Source of the DNA: Asticcacaulis sp.
Lineage (GTDB): Bacteria > Pseudomonadota > Alphaproteobacteria > Caulobacterales > Caulobacteraceae
NCBI RefSeq assembly: GCF_020217185.1
Contig: NZ_JAIWNX010000196.1
Location: forward strand, 1-14,706
Direction of reading: 5' to 3'
DNA length: 14,706 bases
In this document: positions 56-14,706 of the stretch, piece by piece
Layout: each line of letters opens with the position of its first letter
How positions within the stretch are numbered: position 1 is the stretch's first letter
The notes under the pieces: generated by a model
Database searches by the model: none
Seen by the model: only the letters and a program-made list of their open reading frames with translations
Told to the model about the DNA's origin: nothing
Program-made: the position numbers and the translations under genes

Positions 56-580
56 CTATCCGGCCAGCCTGTTCAGCAACGGCCACAGGTCGCTGTAGGG
101 AATGGCCAGCAGGCCCCCGGCACAGATGGCGACCCCATAGGGGATGTCCCCTTGCGGCTTGAGCAGGGTTTGCAGCCACTGAGGCAGGGTGGGGGTATAG
201 ATTTGCAGGAACTGCCGTGCCAGCAGCAGCAACAGGGTAAAGGCCCCGCCCACCAGAGCGGTGTAGGTCAGAAAGGCCAGAACGCCTTCCGGATGAAACC
301 ACAGGGCCGTCGCCGCGAGAAGTTTGGCGTCGCCACCGCCTAAAACCTTGAAGGCGAAGGCGGCAAAGCCCACAACGAGAATGCCCAAACCGATGCCGGT
401 ATGGAGGGCTATGCTGAGGGGTGACAGGCCCAGAAGCAGGGCGGCGGGAAAAAAGACGCCGGCAAGGATCAGGCTCAGGCGGTTCGGAATGGTCATCGAA
501 CGCAGGTCGCTGATGGCCGCCCAGACGAGACAGGCCGGATAGACGACGCAGAAGAGGGCGGGGATCAGAACGGCGGGCAT
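56..580 (-). CDS. cpaA: CpaA-type prepilin peptidase (A24 family)
   Basis: Inner-membrane aspartyl protease that removes the short leader of Flp prepilins and TadE-type pseudopilins for the Tad (type IVc) pilus. The 174-aa protein is almost entirely hydrophobic, with several membrane segments. Both catalytic aspartates of the A24 family are visible: D25 in ISDLRSMTIPN and D84 in the GxGD motif GGGDAK. A conserved IPYG stretch lies near residue 147. It has no zinc-binding N-terminal methylase domain, so it is the short CpaA/TadV form and not the long PilD form. It is the third gene after pilA and the second pilin on the same strand, 112 bp beyond the second pilin, and its substrates are those neighbours. 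The Shine-Dalgarno sequence before the ATG is weak. The family call is secure; the symbol follows the Caulobacter locus. Confidence 0.93.
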   Translation of the reverse strand: MPAVLIPALFCVVYPACLVWAAISDLRSMTIPNRLSLILAGVFFPAALLLGLSPLSIALHTGIGLGILVVGFAAFAFKVLGGGDAKLLAATALWFHPEGVLAFLTYTALVGGAFTLLLLLARQFLQIYTPTLPQWLQTLLKPQGDIPYGVAICAGGLLAIPYSDLWPLLNRLAG

Positions 581-692
581 CGGTCAGAGGCTCTCGATGG
601 CGATTTCACAGAGGCTCAGCCATAGACCGAACAGGGTTAAGAGAGTGTTTTACTGCAAATAGAGGCGATAAATTAAAGACCAGACCGCCGGT

Positions 693-869
693 TCAGTTTG
701 TCAGCGCGCCACCGATTTTGTCGCCGAGCGCTGTATAGTGTTCTTTCATGGAGTCGCCCCAGGCCAGTATAGCCGTCGATGCCACGAGAAAGATCAGGGC
801 CGCAATCAGGGCGTATTCAAGAGCGGTTGCGCCGGTCTCATCTGTCCAGAAGGTTTTGAGCGTGGGCAT
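693..869 (-). CDS. Second Flp/Fap-type pilin (minor or paralogous PilA)
   Basis: Small Flp-family prepilin of 58 aa, starting MPTLKTFWTDETG. The expected cleavage is after G13, giving a mature protein beginning ATALEYALIAALI, with Glu at mature position 5 and a single hydrophobic helix. The C-terminal part (WGDSMKEHYTALGDKIGGALTN) is polar and unlike that of the pilA product just upstream, so this is a diverged paralogue. I chose the ATG at 867-869, which has AGGA upstream. An in-frame ATG at 900-902 lies in the loop of a strong terminator hairpin and would be a poor start. It sits between pilA and cpaA, so CpaA is the likely processing enzyme. It could be a minor pilin or an alternative major pilin; the sequence does not say which. 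Confidence 0.88.
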   Translation of the reverse strand: MPTLKTFWTDETGATALEYALIAALIFLVASTAILAWGDSMKEHYTALGDKIGGALTN

Positions 870-882
870 CGGCGAGGTCCTG

Positions 883-917
883 AAAAAAAGGGCCGCAGAC
901 ATCGATCTGCGGCCCTT
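883..917 (-). terminator. Rho-independent terminator of pilA
   Basis: A perfect 12-bp stem (888-899 with 906-917) around the loop CATCGA is followed on the minus strand by seven Ts (883-889, partly inside the stem). It begins 27 bp after the pilA stop and ends just before the second pilin start. It should separate high pilA expression from lower read-through into the second pilin and cpaA. Confidence 0.9.
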
Positions 918-943
918 CGCCTGGGTTGCTAAACCGCGGTCAA

Positions 944-1108
944 TTAGCCGACGGCGTCTTTGATTTCGGTGAACTTGGCTTCCAGGTTGGTGCCGATGGT
1001 GGTCAGCACGCTGATCAGGACGACGGCGATCAGGGCGGCGATCAGGCCGTATTCGATAGCCGTGGCGCCCGATTCGTCTTTAGCAAAGTTCTTGATGAGG
1101 TTGGTCAT
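944..1108 (-). CDS. pilA: Major Flp pilin PilA
   Basis: Subunit of the Tad (Flp) pilus fibre. The gene encodes only 54 aa: a positively charged leader MTNLIKNFAKDESG, cleavage expected after G14, then mature ATAIEYGLIAALIAVVLI with Glu at mature position 5, which is the Flp pilin signature. A short polar tail ends EIKDAVG. The start ATG (1106-1108) has GGAG about 7 bases upstream, and a GANTC site (GAGTC, 1111-1115) lies between the two. A terminator follows directly. The upstream region is AT-rich and holds two CtrA-like boxes; pilA is a known CtrA target in Caulobacter crescentus, so similar cell-cycle control is likely here (inference). It resembles Caulobacter PilA closely in the leader and hydrophobic core. 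Confidence 0.95.
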   Translation of the reverse strand: MTNLIKNFAKDESGATAIEYGLIAALIAVVLISVLTTIGTNLEAKFTEIKDAVG

Positions 1109-1136
1109 GAGAGTCTCCATTAGAGTAGTATGCTAA

Positions 1137-1188
1137 GCAAGTGAGGTTTAACTTCGGACCGGGGTGGTGAGTTGTTTGGCTCACTTGC
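1137..1188. repeat. 9-bp inverted repeat in the pilA leader
   Basis: GCAAGTGAG at 1137-1145 is matched by its exact complement CTCACTTGC at 1180-1188, with 34 bases between. A short inner AACT/AGTT pair could extend the fold. It lies 29-80 bp upstream of the pilA start, so it could be an operator or an mRNA leader hairpin. Function unknown. Confidence 0.5.
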
Positions 1189-1265
1189 TCCCGAACACGA
1201 ATGCAGAATATGTGATCGCAATTAATATGAAGTAAACAATGGAAATTTTATGAGATTTTTCTATA

Positions 1266-1299
1266 GTTAATAATGATTTACTGTAAATTTTCGTTAAGG
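1266..1299. promoter_or_regulatory. Two facing CtrA-like boxes
   Basis: TTAA-N7-TTAC at 1267-1281 on the plus strand (GTAA-N7-TTAAC on the minus strand) abuts, one base away, TTAA-N7-TTAC at 1283-1297 on the minus strand. Each matches the CtrA consensus TTAA-N7-TTAAC with one mismatch. Together they form a near-symmetric pair about 160-190 bp upstream of pilA and of the CpaC-like gene. The region is AT-rich, so chance matches are possible. Confidence 0.45.
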
Positions 1300-1484
1300 T
1301 TAATTCTTATAAACGATGTTGTATATTGAAATTTGGTCAAATTTTTTTTCATTAATATTGCGTTCAGCATTTTTAAACATATCTTGTTTACCTGTGTTCC
1401 TAACCTGAAGCTCATATTCCTGAGGCAGGCTGGAAGCTGCGCCGGGGGCACAATCGTCCAGCGCCTTTGCAGATGGAGGCAAAG

Positions 1485-1913
1485 ATGACGAAACAGATGA
1501 TAATGGCCGCGTGTCTGGCTGTGGCGGCGCTTTTACCCGTCGGTGCGGCCGAAGCCGCCAGCAAGATCGTGGTCGAAAAAAACCACAGCGCACGGGTGGT
1601 CCTGCCGGCACCTGCCGGATCGGTGATCGTCGGAAATCCCGATGTGGCCGATGTGACCGTCGTCGATTCGCGCACTATATATATAATCGGTCGGGGCTTT
1701 GGCCGGTCTTCGGTTTCGGTCACCGACAGCACGGGCCGCAATATTTTTGACGCCGATGTGATGGTGGGCACACCGGTCGAGGGGGGCGTCACCGTTTATA
1801 AGGGCATGAAATCCAGCACCCTGATCTGTGGTCGTACCTGCATCGAGCAGACCGACGGGATGCAGTCGTCTTCCACCCCCGCGCCGGCACCGCCACCTAC
1901 CCCGGCGAGTTAA
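1485..1913 (+). CDS. Secreted protein with the CpaC-type pilus-assembly N-terminal domain only
   Basis: A 142-aa exported protein. Residues 1-24 form a signal peptide (MTKQMIMAACLAVAALLPVG..., cleavage likely after AEA). Residues about 28-95 match the N-terminal domain that precedes the secretin core in CpaC/RcpA proteins, with the typical GNPDVADVTVVD and a following IIGRGFGRSSVSV stretch. The secretin pore domain is absent; a Cys pair (C115, C119) and a Pro/Ala/Ser tail follow instead. The start at 1485 was chosen because GGAGG lies five bases upstream; an in-frame ATG at 1467 lacks this. It heads a plus-strand group with two TadE-like genes, so a role in the outer-membrane or periplasmic part of the Tad pilus is likely, but its exact function is unknown. 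Confidence 0.85.
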   Translation: MTKQMIMAACLAVAALLPVGAAEAASKIVVEKNHSARVVLPAPAGSVIVGNPDVADVTVVDSRTIYIIGRGFGRSSVSVTDSTGRNIFDADVMVGTPVEGGVTVYKGMKSSTLICGRTCIEQTDGMQSSSTPAPAPPPTPAS

Positions 1914-1987
1914 TCCTCCAATTTAACCCCCTGTTGACTCCCTCTCGTTTAGGATGTGGACACAGTTCTTTTGATGGGACGGACAGG

Positions 1988-2578
1988 GTGCGCAGACTGC
2001 TGACCAAAACCGCGATTTTTCGCCGCCGCCCCGGAGCGCATGGCGAAAGCCGTTTCACACGTTTCGCAACGCGTGCCAGATTTGGCCTATGGCGTGACCG
2101 CCGGGGTTCGACCGCGGTGGAATTTGCCGTTATTGCCCTGCCCTTTTTTGGTTTGATCATGGGCTGCCTCGAACTGGCGATCGTGCTGGTTGCCGGCGTG
2201 TCGCTCGATCTGGCCGCCAGCAAGGTGTCGCGTGAGTTGCGGACCGGCCAGTCCACCAAGCCGACCACGTCCAGCGCCTTCATTACCAAGGTCTGCGCGG
2301 AAATGGCGTGGCTGGGGTCGGATTGCACATCCAAGATGCGCGCCGATGTCCGCACCTTCACCAATTTCAAAATGGTAACCGAAGCCCCCAACGTCATCGT
2401 GAACGGTGAATTCACCAACCTGCAATATACGGCAGGGGGCAGCAGCCAGATCCAGCTGGTGCGCGTCTATTATCCCTGGCGGGTCGTTTCGCCGTTTATG
2501 AAGCCCGGTCTCGGCGCTCTGAGCAGCGGGGAAATGGTTGTCTCCTCCACCATCGTTTTCAGAAACGAGCCCTTCTGA
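1988..2578 (+). CDS. TadE-like pilus assembly protein (pseudopilin)
   Basis: Single-pass membrane protein of the TadE/TadG-like family, about 196 aa. The signature is a prepilin-like site: RRG then STAVEFAVIALPFFGL, with Glu at mature position 5, followed by a membrane helix and an extracytoplasmic domain rich in beta-type sequence. Cleavage by CpaA after G40 is expected. The start is uncertain. I use GTG 1988; the frame is open back to a TTG at 1934 with no ribosome site, and no start codon lies closer to the motif. The leader is therefore unusually long and basic. The stop overlaps the next start (TGATG), so translation is probably coupled to the second TadE-like gene. Confidence 0.85.
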   Translation: MRRLLTKTAIFRRRPGAHGESRFTRFATRARFGLWRDRRGSTAVEFAVIALPFFGLIMGCLELAIVLVAGVSLDLAASKVSRELRTGQSTKPTTSSAFITKVCAEMAWLGSDCTSKMRADVRTFTNFKMVTEAPNVIVNGEFTNLQYTAGGSSQIQLVRVYYPWRVVSPFMKPGLGALSSGEMVVSSTIVFRNEPF

Positions 2579-3132
2579 TGCTGAGATGTCTGGGTAAACA
2601 CCTGCGGTTTGGCCTCCGGGCGCAAGGCGGTACGGCGGCGGTGGAATTCGCCCTGATCGCGCCGGTTCTCATTGTCATCTACTGGGGGCTGGCCGATCTC
2701 AGCCTCGGTCTGATGGCCAGTCGCCGCACGTCGCACCTGGCCGCCAGCATGGGGGACCTGGTCGCGCAGTCCGAAAGCCTGACTCAGGCCAATGTGGACG
2801 ATATTTTTGAAATCGGCAGCAGTATTCTTGATCCCTTTCCCGCCGGGACCAAGTTACATATGCGTATCTCCAGTGTAACGCGCAACGCGACCACCGGCGT
2901 TATCGCGGCGGACTGGACACCGGCTCCGAGCAAAAACTGGCAGGGCACCCTACCGTTTGATACCAAAGGCCTGACCACGGATCAGTTGCCTGCGGGCCAG
3001 ACCCTGATCGTCACCGAGGTCATCTACGACTTCACGCCGCCGATCGGTAAGTTCCTGCCCATCAATACGACGTTCAAATCGACGACCTACCATCATCCGC
3101 GGTCGGGCAGTCAGATCCCGTTGAAACCTTAA
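2578..3132 (+). CDS. TadE/TadF-like pilus assembly protein (pseudopilin)
   Basis: A 184-aa TadE-family protein. The leader MLRCLGKHLRFGLRAQGG is followed by TAAVEFALIAPVLIVIYWGL; cleavage is expected after G18, with Glu at mature position 5 and one membrane helix. The rest is a non-cytoplasmic domain. Its ATG overlaps the stop of the preceding TadE-like gene by one base, so the two are translationally coupled and probably act as a pair, as TadE and TadF do in other Tad systems. Its TAA stop shares the four bases TTAA (3129-3132) with the stop of pabB on the opposite strand. No terminator is seen between the two genes. Confidence 0.87.
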   Translation: MLRCLGKHLRFGLRAQGGTAAVEFALIAPVLIVIYWGLADLSLGLMASRRTSHLAASMGDLVAQSESLTQANVDDIFEIGSSILDPFPAGTKLHMRISSVTRNATTGVIAADWTPAPSKNWQGTLPFDTKGLTTDQLPAGQTLIVTEVIYDFTPPIGKFLPINTTFKSTTYHHPRSGSQIPLKP

Positions 3133-4523
3133 TATCTGCGCTCCAGCACCTGTCGGAACAGGGACAGCTTGGTTTCGGTTTCGCGGCGTTCATCGGCCGG
3201 ATCGGAGTCGGCGACAATGCCGCCACCCGCACTGACCCTTAAGTGCCATTGGCCCCTTTCGTCGCGTTCACAGGCGGCCGTGCGGATCAGCACATTCGAG
3301 TCCATGGCACCCGACGCATCGACCCAGAACAGCGAGCCACAATAGGGACCGCGCGGCGCCTCCAGCGCCTGAATGACCTTCATGGCCTGCACCTTGGGCG
3401 CACCGGAAATCGAGCCGGGCGGGAAGGTGGCCAGCAGCACATCGGCGGCTGTGTGCCCGGCTTTCAGTTGCGCGGTGACGACGGACACCAGATGATGCAC
3501 ATTGGGATAAGATTCCAGCGCGTTCAGGGCTTCGACGCGCACCGAGCCGACCTCGGCGACCTTCGACAGGTCGTGACGCATCAGATCGACGATCATCAGG
3601 TTTTCGGCGCGATCCTTGGCGCTGTTCAGCAGTTCCTGACCCAGCTCTGAGTCAGTCTGCGGCGTGTGCCCGCGTGGGCGCGTGCCCTTGATCGGACGGG
3701 TTTCCATGCGCCCGTCGGCCTCAAGACGGATAAAACGTTCCGGGCTGTTCGACACCACGGCGCGGTCGCCAAAGCGCACAAAGGCGCCGAAAGGACTGGC
3801 CCCCGCTTCGGCCAGCGCCTGTAAAATGTGATCGGGCGCGAGGCCGGGTTTCAGAGCGCCGCGCCAGCCGCGCGCCAGATTGGCCTGAAACAGGTCACCG
3901 GCATGGATTTGCGCCACCAGCGTCGCCACCTTCGCCTCAAACTCGGCGTCCGGTGTTTCGCTGAGCAATGGGCTGTCCATCAAGGCGGCGGGTCGGGGCG
4001 GGGACGCCACGGTTTCGACCTGCGCCGCCAAGGCCTCGGCCCGCTGTCGCGCCGCTTCGGGCGTTGTGCCGCGCCCCAGTACCAGCCGCCGCTTCTGATG
4101 CAGGTCGAAAGCGAGAACCGCCGAAAAGCGCATCAGCACCAGTTCGGGCCACGGTTCAGCCCCCAACTCAAACGCACGCGGCGGCAGGTTTTCCAGCCGC
4201 GGGCCCAGCTCAAACCCGGCCAACCCGATCAGCCCGCCGGTAAAGGGCGGCAAATCCGCGATGTCGTTACCGTGGACATGGGTGTTACCCAACGCCTGCG
4301 CACAGGCCGTGCGCAACACCTCTTCCGGGTGGCGCGCATCGTCAAAGGCAAACACCTCTGTGTCATCGGGTGCCACACACAGCCACGACCAGCGCCCCAG
4401 CGCCCCGCCATCGGACAGGAAACCGGCGCAGCGCTCCGACCTCAGCACGCTGCCGAAAAAGGCTTCGGGCGGCCGGTAGGGCAAGGAGAGGATATGCAGA
4501 TGCTCAGGAAACGGGGGCGTCAT
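3129..4523 (-). CDS. pabB: Aminodeoxychorismate synthase component I
   Basis: Converts chorismate, with ammonia from a glutamine amidotransferase partner, to 4-amino-4-deoxychorismate for p-aminobenzoate and folate synthesis. At 464 aa it has family length. The chorismate-binding domain fills about residues 190-460. The motif PIKGTRPRG (277-285) carries the lysine (K279) typical of PabB, where anthranilate synthase TrpE has PIAGT; this argues for PabB over TrpE. Other family motifs are DLMRHDLSK (313-321), FPPGSISGAPKVQAM (367-381) and AGGGIVADS (432-440). There is no fused amidotransferase or lyase domain and no pabA or pabC next to it, so partners must be encoded elsewhere. A stop lies in frame nine bases before the ATG, which supports that start. 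It converges on the TadE-like operon with a 4-base overlap. Confidence 0.93.
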   Translation of the reverse strand: MTPPFPEHLHILSLPYRPPEAFFGSVLRSERCAGFLSDGGALGRWSWLCVAPDDTEVFAFDDARHPEEVLRTACAQALGNTHVHGNDIADLPPFTGGLIGLAGFELGPRLENLPPRAFELGAEPWPELVLMRFSAVLAFDLHQKRRLVLGRGTTPEAARQRAEALAAQVETVASPPRPAALMDSPLLSETPDAEFEAKVATLVAQIHAGDLFQANLARGWRGALKPGLAPDHILQALAEAGASPFGAFVRFGDRAVVSNSPERFIRLEADGRMETRPIKGTRPRGHTPQTDSELGQELLNSAKDRAENLMIVDLMRHDLSKVAEVGSVRVEALNALESYPNVHHLVSVVTAQLKAGHTAADVLLATFPPGSISGAPKVQAMKVIQALEAPRGPYCGSLFWVDASGAMDSNVLIRTAACERDERGQWHLRVSAGGGIVADSDPADERRETETKLSLFRQVLERRY

Positions 4524-4579
4524 TGGTGTTCACGGCGGGCGGCTTCAACTCTCACGGCAACTTGATTCGCCCGTTAAGC

Positions 4580-4721
4580 CATTGAGGATCATTATGATTG
4601 CAGGTTTCGCCACACAAGCCTGTCTTTTTAGACACTCTCTGGCATGTATGACGAGTGGCCTATGGATGGAGGTCCATGAGATGTATCCTGACGCCCGGTG
4701 CGACGCATCGGGCGTTTTTTT
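4580..4721 (+). ncRNA. Possible small RNA ending at an orphan terminator
   Basis: A convincing plus-strand terminator at 4691-4721 has no plus-strand gene before it: pabB upstream is on the other strand and starts at 4523. The 100-140 bases before it contain a hairpin ATGGA/TCCAT (4662-4666 with 4673-4677) that shows GGAGG in the loop. That arrangement would fit a small RNA or a leader peptide transcript. I could not find a convincing promoter, and the start given is a guess. It matches no RNA family I can recognise. Confidence 0.25.
4691..4721 (+). terminator. Strong rho-independent terminator, plus strand
   Basis: ACGCCCGGTGC pairs with GCATCGGGCGT (4691-4701 with 4705-4715), 11 pairs with one G-T wobble around a three-base loop GAC, followed by T7 (4715-4721). 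There is no T-run on the other strand, so it works for plus-strand transcripts only. Confidence 0.8.
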
Positions 4722-4782
4722 CAGGTCTTATACGCGCTCTGCCCGTGTGCGGATGCAACAACCCCCGCCCAAATAAAGGATA

Positions 4783-4905
4783 CCAACGGCCGAAGATGCT
4801 GACCGCATCCGGCCGTTGGACACACGAGACTGTCTCATATGTGTCAGTGAGATGAGACCGTCTCGAAAGGCATACCAAGAGCCATTTTCAATGACTCTCG
4901 GTATG
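4783..4905 (-). repeat. Three-hairpin intergenic repeat, copy A
   Basis: Read on the minus strand, downstream of ctpA, three stems follow each other. The first (4905-4871) has 16 pairs including two G-T wobbles and a three-base loop GAA. The second (4865-4825) has 13 of 14 pairs and a 13-base loop CTCACTGACACAT. The third (4819-4783) has 10 plus 5 pairs with a two-base bulge TT and loop GGTCA. Five-base linkers separate them. The same element, in the other orientation, occurs at 14589-14706. It has one GANTC site at 4893-4897. It carries no T-run after the last stem, so it is not an ordinary terminator. It begins 15 bp after the ctpA stop. Confidence 0.92.
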
Positions 4906-4920
4906 ATGCGGGGGTGTCGC

Positions 4921-6384
4921 TTACTTCGGTTGCGCCGAGCTTGAGGATGACGACGACGAAGCGGTCGCCGTATTGGGAGCCGCCGCCGGGGCTGGTTTGG
5001 CCGGACCGGCCTTGGTCTTGCCCGCAAAGCGCTCGCTCGGCGTATCGACCAGATCGGACATGGCCAGCTTGAGGCCGCGCGGGTGCGCCGCCGCCATCTT
5101 CACGTCGCCGCCATAGTTCAGCACGTCGATGGCGCGCGCCAGTTGGAAGTCACCGGTTTTGACGTCGTAGGAATCCGGCGGCACTTCGGACACGACGTGC
5201 GCTTCCTGACGCTTCTTGCCCTCATCGGCATCCAGCGCGTTCTTGTAATCGGCTTCCGAGAAGGAATAGGCGCGGTTGGCGATCACCTTGGCCTGATCGC
5301 GCGATTGCGCCACTTCCAGATCGGGCTCGATGCCCGTCTTCTGGATCGAGCGGCCCGACGGCGTGTAATAGCGCGCAATGGTCATCTTCACCGCGCGGTT
5401 TTCGCCCAGATTGATGACGCTCTGCACCGAACCCTTGCCAAAGGTGGTCAGGCCGACGGTTGAGGCCCGCTTGTGATCCTGAAGCGCGCCTGCAACGATT
5501 TCCGCCGCCGAAGCCGTACCCGGATTGGTCAGAACCACGATCGGCTTGCCGTTCATGATGTCGCCCTTATGGGCCTGATAGCGGGTGATGTCGTCGGGCT
5601 TGCGCCCACGCTGCGACACCACTTCGCCACCTTCGAGGAACAGGTCGGCGACGCCCACCGACTGATCGAGCAGACCGCCGGGATTGTTGCGCAAATCGAG
5701 GATCAGCCCCTTCATCTGCGGGTTCTTCGTGCGCAGATCGCTCAGCGCCTCATAGGATTCGCGCGCCGTATTCTCGTTGAAGTTCGAGATGCGCAGATAG
5801 CCGTAAGCGCCTTCCATGCGCGCCTTGACCGACTTCACATTGATGATTTCGCGCTTCAGCTTGACGTCGAACGGCTCGTCCTTGCCTTCGCGGTAGATGG
5901 TCAGCGTCAGGTCCGTCTCCGGCGTCCCCTTCATCTTGGAGACGGCCTCGTTCAGGCGCATCCCCAGAATCGAGGTGCCGTCGATGGCGGTGATAAAGTC
6001 ACCCGACTGGATACCCGCCTTCATGGCCGGGGTGTCGTCCATCGGGGTGACCACCTTCACCGCGCCGTCTTCGGACTGCACCTCAAGGCCGATGCCGCCA
6101 TAGGCGCCCTTGGTGCGTTCCTGAAGGTCGGTGAAATCATCCGCCGACAAGTAGTTGGAATGCGGATCGAGCGAGGACAGCATCCCCTGAAGCGCGGCTT
6201 CAATCAGCTTCTTGTCGTCCACCTCGACCACATAGTTCTGCTTGACCAGCGCCACGACGTCGCCAAACAGCTCAAGCATTTCATAGGTATCGGACTTGGG
6301 CGAAAAGGCCGGCTGATTGGCGTAGGCCACCGCACCAATGCTCAGGGCCAGAGCGGCGACGCCGCCCAGGAAATAATTTCTCAT
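4921..6384 (-). CDS. ctpA: C-terminal processing protease CtpA (S41 family)
   Basis: Exported serine protease with a Ser-Lys dyad that cleaves periplasmic proteins near their C termini; members of the family act on cell-wall enzymes and envelope proteins. The 487-aa product has an N-terminal signal or anchor (MRNYFLGGVAALALSIGAVAYA), a PDZ domain at about 100-170 (YGGIGLEV...), and the protease core with S292 in NPGTASAAE and K317 in TFGKGSVQ, the usual 25 residues apart. The motif LDLRNNPGGLL (244-254) is typical of the family. The last 30 or so residues are Ala/Pro/Ser-rich, including eight serines in a row. I chose the ATG at 6384 because AGAGGA lies just before it; a frame extension to 6429 lacks such a site and would put 15 residues before the signal peptide. 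It follows envC by 110 bp. Confidence 0.94.
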   Translation of the reverse strand: MRNYFLGGVAALALSIGAVAYANQPAFSPKSDTYEMLELFGDVVALVKQNYVVEVDDKKLIEAALQGMLSSLDPHSNYLSADDFTDLQERTKGAYGGIGLEVQSEDGAVKVVTPMDDTPAMKAGIQSGDFITAIDGTSILGMRLNEAVSKMKGTPETDLTLTIYREGKDEPFDVKLKREIINVKSVKARMEGAYGYLRISNFNENTARESYEALSDLRTKNPQMKGLILDLRNNPGGLLDQSVGVADLFLEGGEVVSQRGRKPDDITRYQAHKGDIMNGKPIVVLTNPGTASAAEIVAGALQDHKRASTVGLTTFGKGSVQSVINLGENRAVKMTIARYYTPSGRSIQKTGIEPDLEVAQSRDQAKVIANRAYSFSEADYKNALDADEGKKRQEAHVVSEVPPDSYDVKTGDFQLARAIDVLNYGGDVKMAAAHPRGLKLAMSDLVDTPSERFAGKTKAGPAKPAPAAAPNTATASSSSSSSSAQPK

Positions 6385-13735: not shown

Positions 13736-14590
13736 ATGACCGCTTCCCAAAAGATCGCCTATCAGGGCGAACCCGGCGCCTTCAGCCATCAGGCCTGCCG
13801 CCGCTGGTTCCCTGACTATACGCCGACCGCTTTCCCGTCCTTTGAGGCGGCCTTTGCGGCGGTGACGGCGGGCGAGTGCGCTCTGGGCATGATTCCGGTC
13901 GAAAACGCGCTGGCCGGGCGGGTGGCCGACGTGCACCACCTGTTGCCGCATTCGGGGCTGAAGATCATCGGTGAGCGCTTCCTGCCCATCGAAATGACCC
14001 TGATGGGGACGCCGGACGCCGAACTGTCGGATATCAAGGTGGCCTTTTCGCACACCATGGCCCTGATGCAGTGCCGCAACTCGCTGAACGCCCTGGGCAT
14101 CCGCCCGGAAATCTATCACGATACCGCCGGTGCGGCCCGCCGCCTCAGCGAGACGCAGGAGCGTGACCGCGCCGCCATTGCGCCGGAAATCGCGGCGGAA
14201 CTTTATGGCCTGAAAATCCTGCGTCGCAATCTGGAAGACGCGCACAACAACACCACGCGCTTTCTGGTCCTCAGCGCGCAGGCCGAAGTCTCTGACCCCG
14301 CGGAGGCCGAGCGCGTCCTGACCAGCTTTGTGTTTGGTGTGCGCAACATCCCGGCGGCGCTGTATAAGGCGTTGGGCGGTTTTGCCACCAACGGCATCAA
14401 TATGATCCGGCTGGAAAGCTATATCCGCGACGGCATCTTTGCCTCGACCTTCTTCTATGCCGAGGTCGAAGGCCGCCCCAGTGACCGCCTGCTGAAACTG
14501 GCCTTTGAGGAACTGGCCTTCTTCGCCGAAGAGGTCGAGTTGCTGGGCGTCTATGCCATGGACCCCTTCCGCGCCTCGCAGGGGGTATAA
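13736..14590 (+). CDS. pheA: Prephenate dehydratase
   Basis: Converts prephenate to phenylpyruvate in phenylalanine synthesis. The 284-aa protein is of the stand-alone type without a chorismate mutase domain. The catalytic domain (about 5-180) begins IAYQGEPGAFSH, has IPVENALAG (53-61), and ends with the TRF motif in NTTRF (172-176). A C-terminal ACT domain follows (about 196-275), with ALYKALGGFATNGINM. The phenylalanine-binding ESRP motif of other PheA proteins reads ESYI here (227-230), a form I believe is usual in alphaproteobacteria, so feedback control may differ. The ribosome site before the ATG is weak. The stop codon is directly followed by, and overlaps by two bases, the first stem of repeat copy B. 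Confidence 0.94.
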   Translation: MTASQKIAYQGEPGAFSHQACRRWFPDYTPTAFPSFEAAFAAVTAGECALGMIPVENALAGRVADVHHLLPHSGLKIIGERFLPIEMTLMGTPDAELSDIKVAFSHTMALMQCRNSLNALGIRPEIYHDTAGAARRLSETQERDRAAIAPEIAAELYGLKILRRNLEDAHNNTTRFLVLSAQAEVSDPAEAERVLTSFVFGVRNIPAALYKALGGFATNGINMIRLESYIRDGIFASTFFYAEVEGRPSDRLLKLAFEELAFFAEEVELLGVYAMDPFRASQGV

Positions 14591-14706
14591 TACCAAGGGT
14601 TATTGAAAATGACTCTTGGTATTCCATTCGAGAATTTCTCATGTCACTGACACATATGAGAAATTCTCGCTTCTTCAACGGCCGGATGCGGTCAGCATCT
14701 TCGGCC
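14589..14706 (+). repeat. Three-hairpin intergenic repeat, copy B (cut by the window edge)
   Basis: Same element as 4783-4905, in plus orientation after pheA. The first stem is 14589-14604 with 14608-14623 (16 pairs, two G-T wobbles, loop GAA). The second is 14629-14642 with 14656-14669 (14 perfect pairs, loop GTCACTGACACAT). The third starts at 14676 and its right arm is cut at 14706; its 31 visible bases equal copy A. One GANTC site lies at 14611-14615, on the arm opposite to the one used in copy A. Confidence 0.92.

Follow-up and report, generated by a model that had tools for sequence, protein, structure and literature searches.

Covarying three-hairpin repeats of Asticcacaulis and of Agrobacterium vitis-group plasmids are probably mobile DNA elements of MITE type

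Two copies of a short element lie on opposite strands of a 14,706-nucleotide stretch of Asticcacaulis DNA (the whole of which is referred to here as the window), and each is predicted to fold into three hairpins whose stems differ between the copies in ways that preserve pairing. Is this covariation the mark of an RNA selected for its structure, as an initial annotation of the locus proposed, or has it arisen in DNA that moves and is copied as a palindrome? Here we report evidence that the element, about 123 bp long and made up of three hairpins, is probably a MITE-type, non-autonomous DNA transposon. It would then represent a new family within a kind already known, perhaps with kinship to the CIR repeats, and not a new RNA. 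The case also carries a warning, in that covariation among dispersed repeats can stem from the repair of palindromes or from exchange between DNA copies, and does not imply a functional RNA.

The features of both copies are collected in Table 1. Read in the element's own direction, hairpin 1 (TACCAAG...CTTGGTA) is followed by hairpin 2 and then by hairpin 3, which ends in GTTGGTA. The two copies (120 nt, arms 86% complementary) gave z-scores of -8.7 (A) and -8.6 (B) for this fold, and none of 200 shuffles folded equally well; the coordinates and the folding bear out the description of two three-hairpin copies in opposite orientations. Inspection by eye likewise confirmed the reported differences in hairpin 2, where C-G in one copy stands against A-T in the other, G-C against T-A, and the G-A mismatch of copy A is T-A in copy B, as well as the passage of all four hairpin-1 differences via G-T; in hairpin 3, A and B agree at all 31 visible bases. 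Copy A begins 16 bases past a peptidase S41 (ctpA-type) gene. The missing end of copy B forms the start of contig C317, in which its right triplet, TAA, can be read; as this other half opens a contig, the element itself breaks the assembly.

Table 1. Positions of the two element copies and of their parts in the window
Feature	Position	Strand	Description
Copy A	4780..4904	minus	ATACC...GGTAT
Copy A, mobile unit	4781-4903	minus	TACC...GGTA
Copy A, left flanking triplet	4904..4906	minus	TCA
Copy A, hairpin 1	4872..4904	minus	15 pairs, loop GAA, GAGTC (GANTC) site inside
Copy A, hairpin 2	4825..4865	minus	14 stem positions per side, a G-A mismatch among them
Copy A, hairpin 3	4784..4818	minus	GATGC/GCATC top, two-base bulge
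Copy A, right flanking triplet	4778..4780	minus	TCC, one base off TCA
Copy B	14590..14706	plus	Element cut by the window end; rest in C317, another contig of this genome
Copy B, left target-site triplet	14588..14590	plus	TAA, also the stop codon of the prephenate dehydratase gene
Copy B, hairpin 1	14590..14622	plus	
Copy B, hairpin 2	14629..14669	plus	
Copy B, hairpin 3	14676..14706	plus	First 31 bases

The host genome yielded 58 matches at E values up to 1, at least 40 of them long (E below 1e-21) and 18 short or self-complementary; since scoring covered only the best 40 of 64 candidates, 40 is a lower bound, and some of the long matches are half copies at the ends of contigs. At least 40 long matches, from the best 40 of 73 candidates, were also found in the relative G005, which we take for Asticcacaulis excentricus M6 and whose third contig carries a copy at coordinates matching those on the M6 plasmid pASEM-1. 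A DNA search of 41 genomes was positive in the host and in four of 24 other Asticcacaulis genomes, and negative in all 16 from other families. A covariance-model search, as suggested by the initial annotation, matched eight of 299 Caulobacteraceae genomes, all within one of 22 genera, and three of the eight solely via diverged relatives of 118-167 bases. A pattern for the end hairpin occurred in eight of 348 genomes, at 3 to 88 places each, with none for the reversed control among the rows listed. The 21 other Caulobacteraceae genera sampled gave no match, either to this pattern or to the covariance model, which was run with strict filters or with two scored candidates per genome.

Copies reside on Asticcacaulis chromosomes and plasmids, and also on plasmids from the Agrobacterium vitis group. 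Identity between the Asticcacaulis and A. vitis elements is 72% over about 126 bases, which places the element in the Rhizobiaceae as well, and the rhizobial model matches an Asticcacaulis plasmid copy at 5.5e-18. The end hairpin alone was present in at least 111 stretches, the listed titles of which include Azospirillum, Niveispirillum, Allorhizobium, Agrobacterium, Rhizobium, Roseospira, Acidisphaera, Inquilinus and others. In being short, gene-free and dispersed in many copies the element resembles a MITE. The only two Rfam matches both fell under the gathering score and outside the element. We recognised no description of the three-hairpin family in the literature, surveyed mostly at the level of titles and abstracts and apart from the original CIR report, and the family may bear another name.

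Pairing was assessed in 52 copies, aligned from 55 references after removal of three repeats, with 12 copies cut at a contig end or locus edge excluded. In this alignment 97.2% of stem cells were paired and double changes occurred at 10 of 43 pairs; pairing and double changes at this level were reached by none of 500 shuffles, and slid partners paired in 34-43% of cases. The rhizobial alignment (14 of 17 rhizobial rows) gave 95.6% pairing and double changes at 10 of 44 pairs, the five measures being reached by 0 to 6 of 500 shuffles; its stems exchange UA-GC, GC-AU and CG-GC, and the wobble state is absent at those three pairs. Across 82 nearest-copy pairs there were 33 doubly changed pairs where 5.0 were expected, and 26 of the 33 went from Watson-Crick to Watson-Crick. 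Copy counts, and pairing compared with shuffles in both sets, therefore uphold a dispersed element of three hairpins with covarying stems. The initial annotation had named stem-breaking copies, or a lack of any further copies, as findings that would speak against it; further copies exist, and they keep their stems.

From 193 raw copies, 145 had 30 flanking bases and were non-identical when taken with their flanks, and these formed 112 site clusters (95 Asticcacaulis-type and 17 rhizobial); as flanks were demanded, window copy B is absent from the site statistics. The 3-mers on the two sides were identical at 60 of 94 Asticcacaulis-type sites and at 13 of 17 rhizobial ones. TNA stood on both sides at 68/94 and 14/17 sites, respectively, and N agreed in 59 of those 68 and 13 of those 14. 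When the 52-copy set was examined, N was equal in 29 of 35 cases, which none of 20000 permutations reached. The element thus shows a target-site duplication of fixed length, TNA, as MITEs do, and shares with them terminal inverted repeats, which are short (TACCAA/TTGGTA in the Asticcacaulis consensus); some rhizobial copies have the ends TACGAA/TTGGTA. Against the MITE reading, the two triplets of copy A differ, and an identical pair is likewise lacking in L062, the only orthologue of copy A among these copies; L246, considered as an orthologue of copy A, was rejected for its mismatching flanks.

Empty sites were also found. At the position of copy B, G010 and G023 have the next sequence directly after pheA, the stop there being TGA; the site is filled in G000 and G005, with the element between TAA and TAA, and G019 carries other DNA. 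On one A. vitis plasmid, a LysR gene with the ending GGCTAA is followed by the element and then by a second TAA, and four related plasmids read GGCTAA and then the downstream sequence (a fifth record was listed only). At a second site of the A. vitis group, TTA is duplicated in S4 pAtS4e by comparison with the empty site of pRvVAR0630b, as judged by eye from alignment rows in which the aligner had misplaced the gap. Target duplication and empty sites are now available for this repeat family; the same kind of evidence was judged wanting for the similar CIR repeats in the review PMC2229807.

The genomic context was analysed after setting aside 26 of the 112 clusters (17 rhizobial, six without a listed locus and three with flanks under 500 bases) and 29 of the remaining 86 that had no identical TNA pair, which left 57 sites whose neighbouring genes were called by a codon-usage script. 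Both neighbours were called at 54 sites, 21 of which lie between convergent genes, 15 in tandem sense, nine in tandem antisense and nine between divergent genes. Among 53 sites, 20 had a stop codon as the triplet, where 12.1 were expected (p about 0.001 by simulation), and in these insertions hairpin 1 adjoined the stop in 16 of 20 and hairpin 3 in four. We read this pattern as tolerance together with a mild target or orientation preference; the excess, which is moderate, may be an overestimate, given that the triplet is protected where it is a stop codon. Insertion at a stop would be tolerated because a duplicated TAA or TGA preserves it, and would offer such elements one route to spread with little harm.

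Selection for a structured RNA at each locus, either an sRNA or a 3' UTR element whose hairpins act within the upstream gene's transcript, would account for the covariation beyond shuffles, for the sense position behind a gene of both window copies and of 15 of 24 tandem sites, for the preponderance of hairpin 1 next to the stop (16/20) and for the lower divergence of stems than of flanks in orthologous pairs, described below. We nevertheless regard it as unlikely. A selected RNA should tolerate G-U and not A-C, yet over the 95 Asticcacaulis-type sites, with pair 11-27 set aside, 66 G-U cells stood against 49 A-C cells (p 0.135), and the same transitions in the unpaired control numbered 132 and 111 (Fisher p 0.65 against the stem counts). 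Pair 11-27 is G-T at 60 of the 95 sites, which we read as one widely inherited variant; if it is counted in, a large apparent G-U excess results from that single variant. As G-U does not clearly exceed A-C, these counts give no sign of an RNA strand: the strand-specific pairing of a structured RNA was not found, and the claim that pairing holds only in the proposed direction does not carry over to these sites. The nine antisense tandem and nine divergent placements among the 54 sites, the patchy occurrence (four of 24 other genomes of the genus in the DNA search), the empty sites and the lack of an Rfam match within the element also argue against RNA function. The initial annotation had read the stem pattern as pointing to a structured RNA rather than to a neutral repeat. 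Target duplication, empty sites, the absence of a clear wobble strand bias and loops inverted at two sites do not support this, and they fit a mobile DNA palindrome.

How, then, could paired changes arise in DNA? One result speaks against the mobile-DNA reading: in 26 orthologous site pairs, differences per site amounted to 0.051 in stems, 0.074 in the 60-base flanks and 0.106 in unpaired parts (stems against unpaired parts, p 3e-8). Since stems change more slowly than flanks and unpaired parts, some constraint, repair or conversion acts on them in place; the cause could be repair by template switching, conversion of one copy by another, or a real constraint on the structure of each locus. Singletons per column (0.77 in stems against 0.67) favour an absence of constraint, but this measure is biased by saturation in variable columns. 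The alternative offered by the initial annotation, a structure-dependent DNA element, is possible in view of the slower change of stems than of flanks at orthologous sites. Twelve paired changes occurred within single sites of these pairs. The states involved were present at nine or more other sites for nine of them, at one other site for two and nowhere else for one; as most recur elsewhere, conversion would explain most of them as well as template switching does, and both are possible sources. The hairpin-1 loop is inverted, and the rest of the element is not, in L015, L257 and L264; L015 and L257 represent one orthologous site, so that such loops occur at two of the 112 sites, a hint of template switching between the arms. 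Template switching has been published as a source of compensatory changes (PMC8794818).

For a MITE-type transposon these observations suggest a scheme in which a putative transposase, supplied in trans, would act on the two ends, both of them located at a hairpin foot. The paired stem changes would come mainly from DNA synthesis that switches template within the palindrome, one arm being copied onto the other, or alternatively from conversion between copies, with selection on those copies that are able to move; RNA function at each locus would not be required. Most likely, the matching of the stems is kept at the level of DNA.

A more speculative extension, which we think unlikely, is that folded hairpins, either extruded or single-stranded, are what the transposition machinery recognises at the ends, in place of linear inverted repeats, and that it nonetheless duplicates a 3-bp TNA. 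It is prompted by the slower change of stems than of flanks and by some rhizobial copies in which pairing of the 5'-end hairpin is kept and the match to the 3' end lost, so that the pairing outlives the match of the ends. If true, this would be a mode of transposition between those of DDE elements and of hairpin-reading Y1 elements, and would explain the matched arms of alphaproteobacterial palindromic repeats, possibly those of CIR too.

A CIR-type repeat that serves cell-cycle regulation by providing the CcrM methylation site GANTC appears to us rather improbable. Hairpin 1 contains GANTC at 83 of 112 sites and lacks it at 29, and these GANTC sites sit in the stem and vary with it; the placement at or in the terminal loop that is typical of CIR was not found, although by eye it is often present in two-arm relatives from Asticcacaulis and other Alphaproteobacteria. 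The CIR of Chen and Shapiro (2003), as described in PMC2229807, has a form of about 110 bp, with two arms and a linker, TA ends and GANTC at a loop. The element agrees with that description in size class, hairpin arms, TA ends, intergenic location, GANTC and occurrence in Alphaproteobacteria, and differs in having three hairpins and GANTC in the hairpin-1 stem. No match was obtained in 21 other sampled genera of the Caulobacteraceae, the family in which CIRs were described. Kinship in form to the Caulobacter CIR, as compared by description and not by sequence, is nonetheless plausible. A second family (L086, L094, L101 and L088, from G014, G009 and G006) of 138-167 bases has two arms, one of them with GANTC at its loop, and its members have a linker motif in common; the genome with 88 end-hairpin places is an Asticcacaulis genome that carries this family.

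Other short repeats can be compared in the same way. The element duplicates a 3-bp TNA, unlike the MITEs ERIC, RUP and Correia/NEMIS, which duplicate TA. Like them it is short and present in many copies, with stable hairpins and a target duplication; in theirs a single stem loop forms by pairing of the two ends, according to PMC2229807, and here there are three separate hairpins. RIME (Osteras 1995) are likewise palindromic intergenic repeats of Rhizobiaceae, according to PMC2573895. The rhizobial model R2 found no match on pSymB, the one S. meliloti replicon covered, and matched three other plasmid records in the same search.

We consider it very unlikely that a Y1 (HUH) transposase moves the element in single-stranded, folded form, as in REP or IS200-IS605-like elements. 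Such a mode would suit the position of each end within its own hairpin, as well as the rhizobial 5' end TACGAAG, which changes together with its hairpin partner (C-G to G-C, four of 14 rows) as the 3' end stays TTGGTA, but Y1 transposition is not known to produce a 3-bp target duplication. Least likely of all is a transcription terminator spread by duplication, which the strong hairpins behind genes and the 21 of 54 sites between convergent genes might suggest, since the precise TNA duplication marks transposition and a pattern scan of 4500-5000, which took in copy A only, found no terminator-like site inside that copy and two at 4600-4716 outside it.

That neither a transposase nor an autonomous partner was found, with three transposase families searched in five genomes, counts against the MITE reading. 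Elements of the IS1031 group of the IS5 family have TNA as their target, so that the 3-bp duplication resembles theirs, but no TACCAAG end pairs surrounded the IS5-type transposase loci examined. In 64 loci of DUF4096, PF01609 and PF13586 matches from five genomes (three PF01609 matches got no locus), scans for TACC ends accompanied by TNA, and for inverted ends of any sequence, revealed no matching end pair of an autonomous relative. Single TACC-like sites were present in a few transposase loci, and one locus with two such sites 137 bases apart was rejected because its sequence is not the element. When a second end was sought up to 4 kb from the 111 end-hairpin loci, the elements recovered measured 80 to 300 bases; there were also eleven longer matches, which we take for chance. 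Six weak matches in G010 (L300-L305), viewed with wide flanks, resemble truncated or degraded copies. Partial plasmid matches, for which the gene table is incomplete, enclosed no transposase between such ends and included no autonomous element; one of them, L379 from an A. salinitolerans plasmid, is half an element with IS66-family genes nearby.

A few further observations concern single loci. In a copy from Rhizobium paknamense (L180:2087-2218), a different palindrome replaces much of the hairpin-1 stem and the remainder is little changed. The ORFs at 56-3132 of the window resemble what we take to be a pilus assembly block (a prepilin peptidase-like protein and two short membrane-anchored proteins). 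In the gap between copy A and a pabB-type gene, two terminator-like sites lie on the plus strand at 4600-4720, with both neighbouring genes on the minus strand, and these sites are possibly the end of an unannotated plus-strand small RNA.
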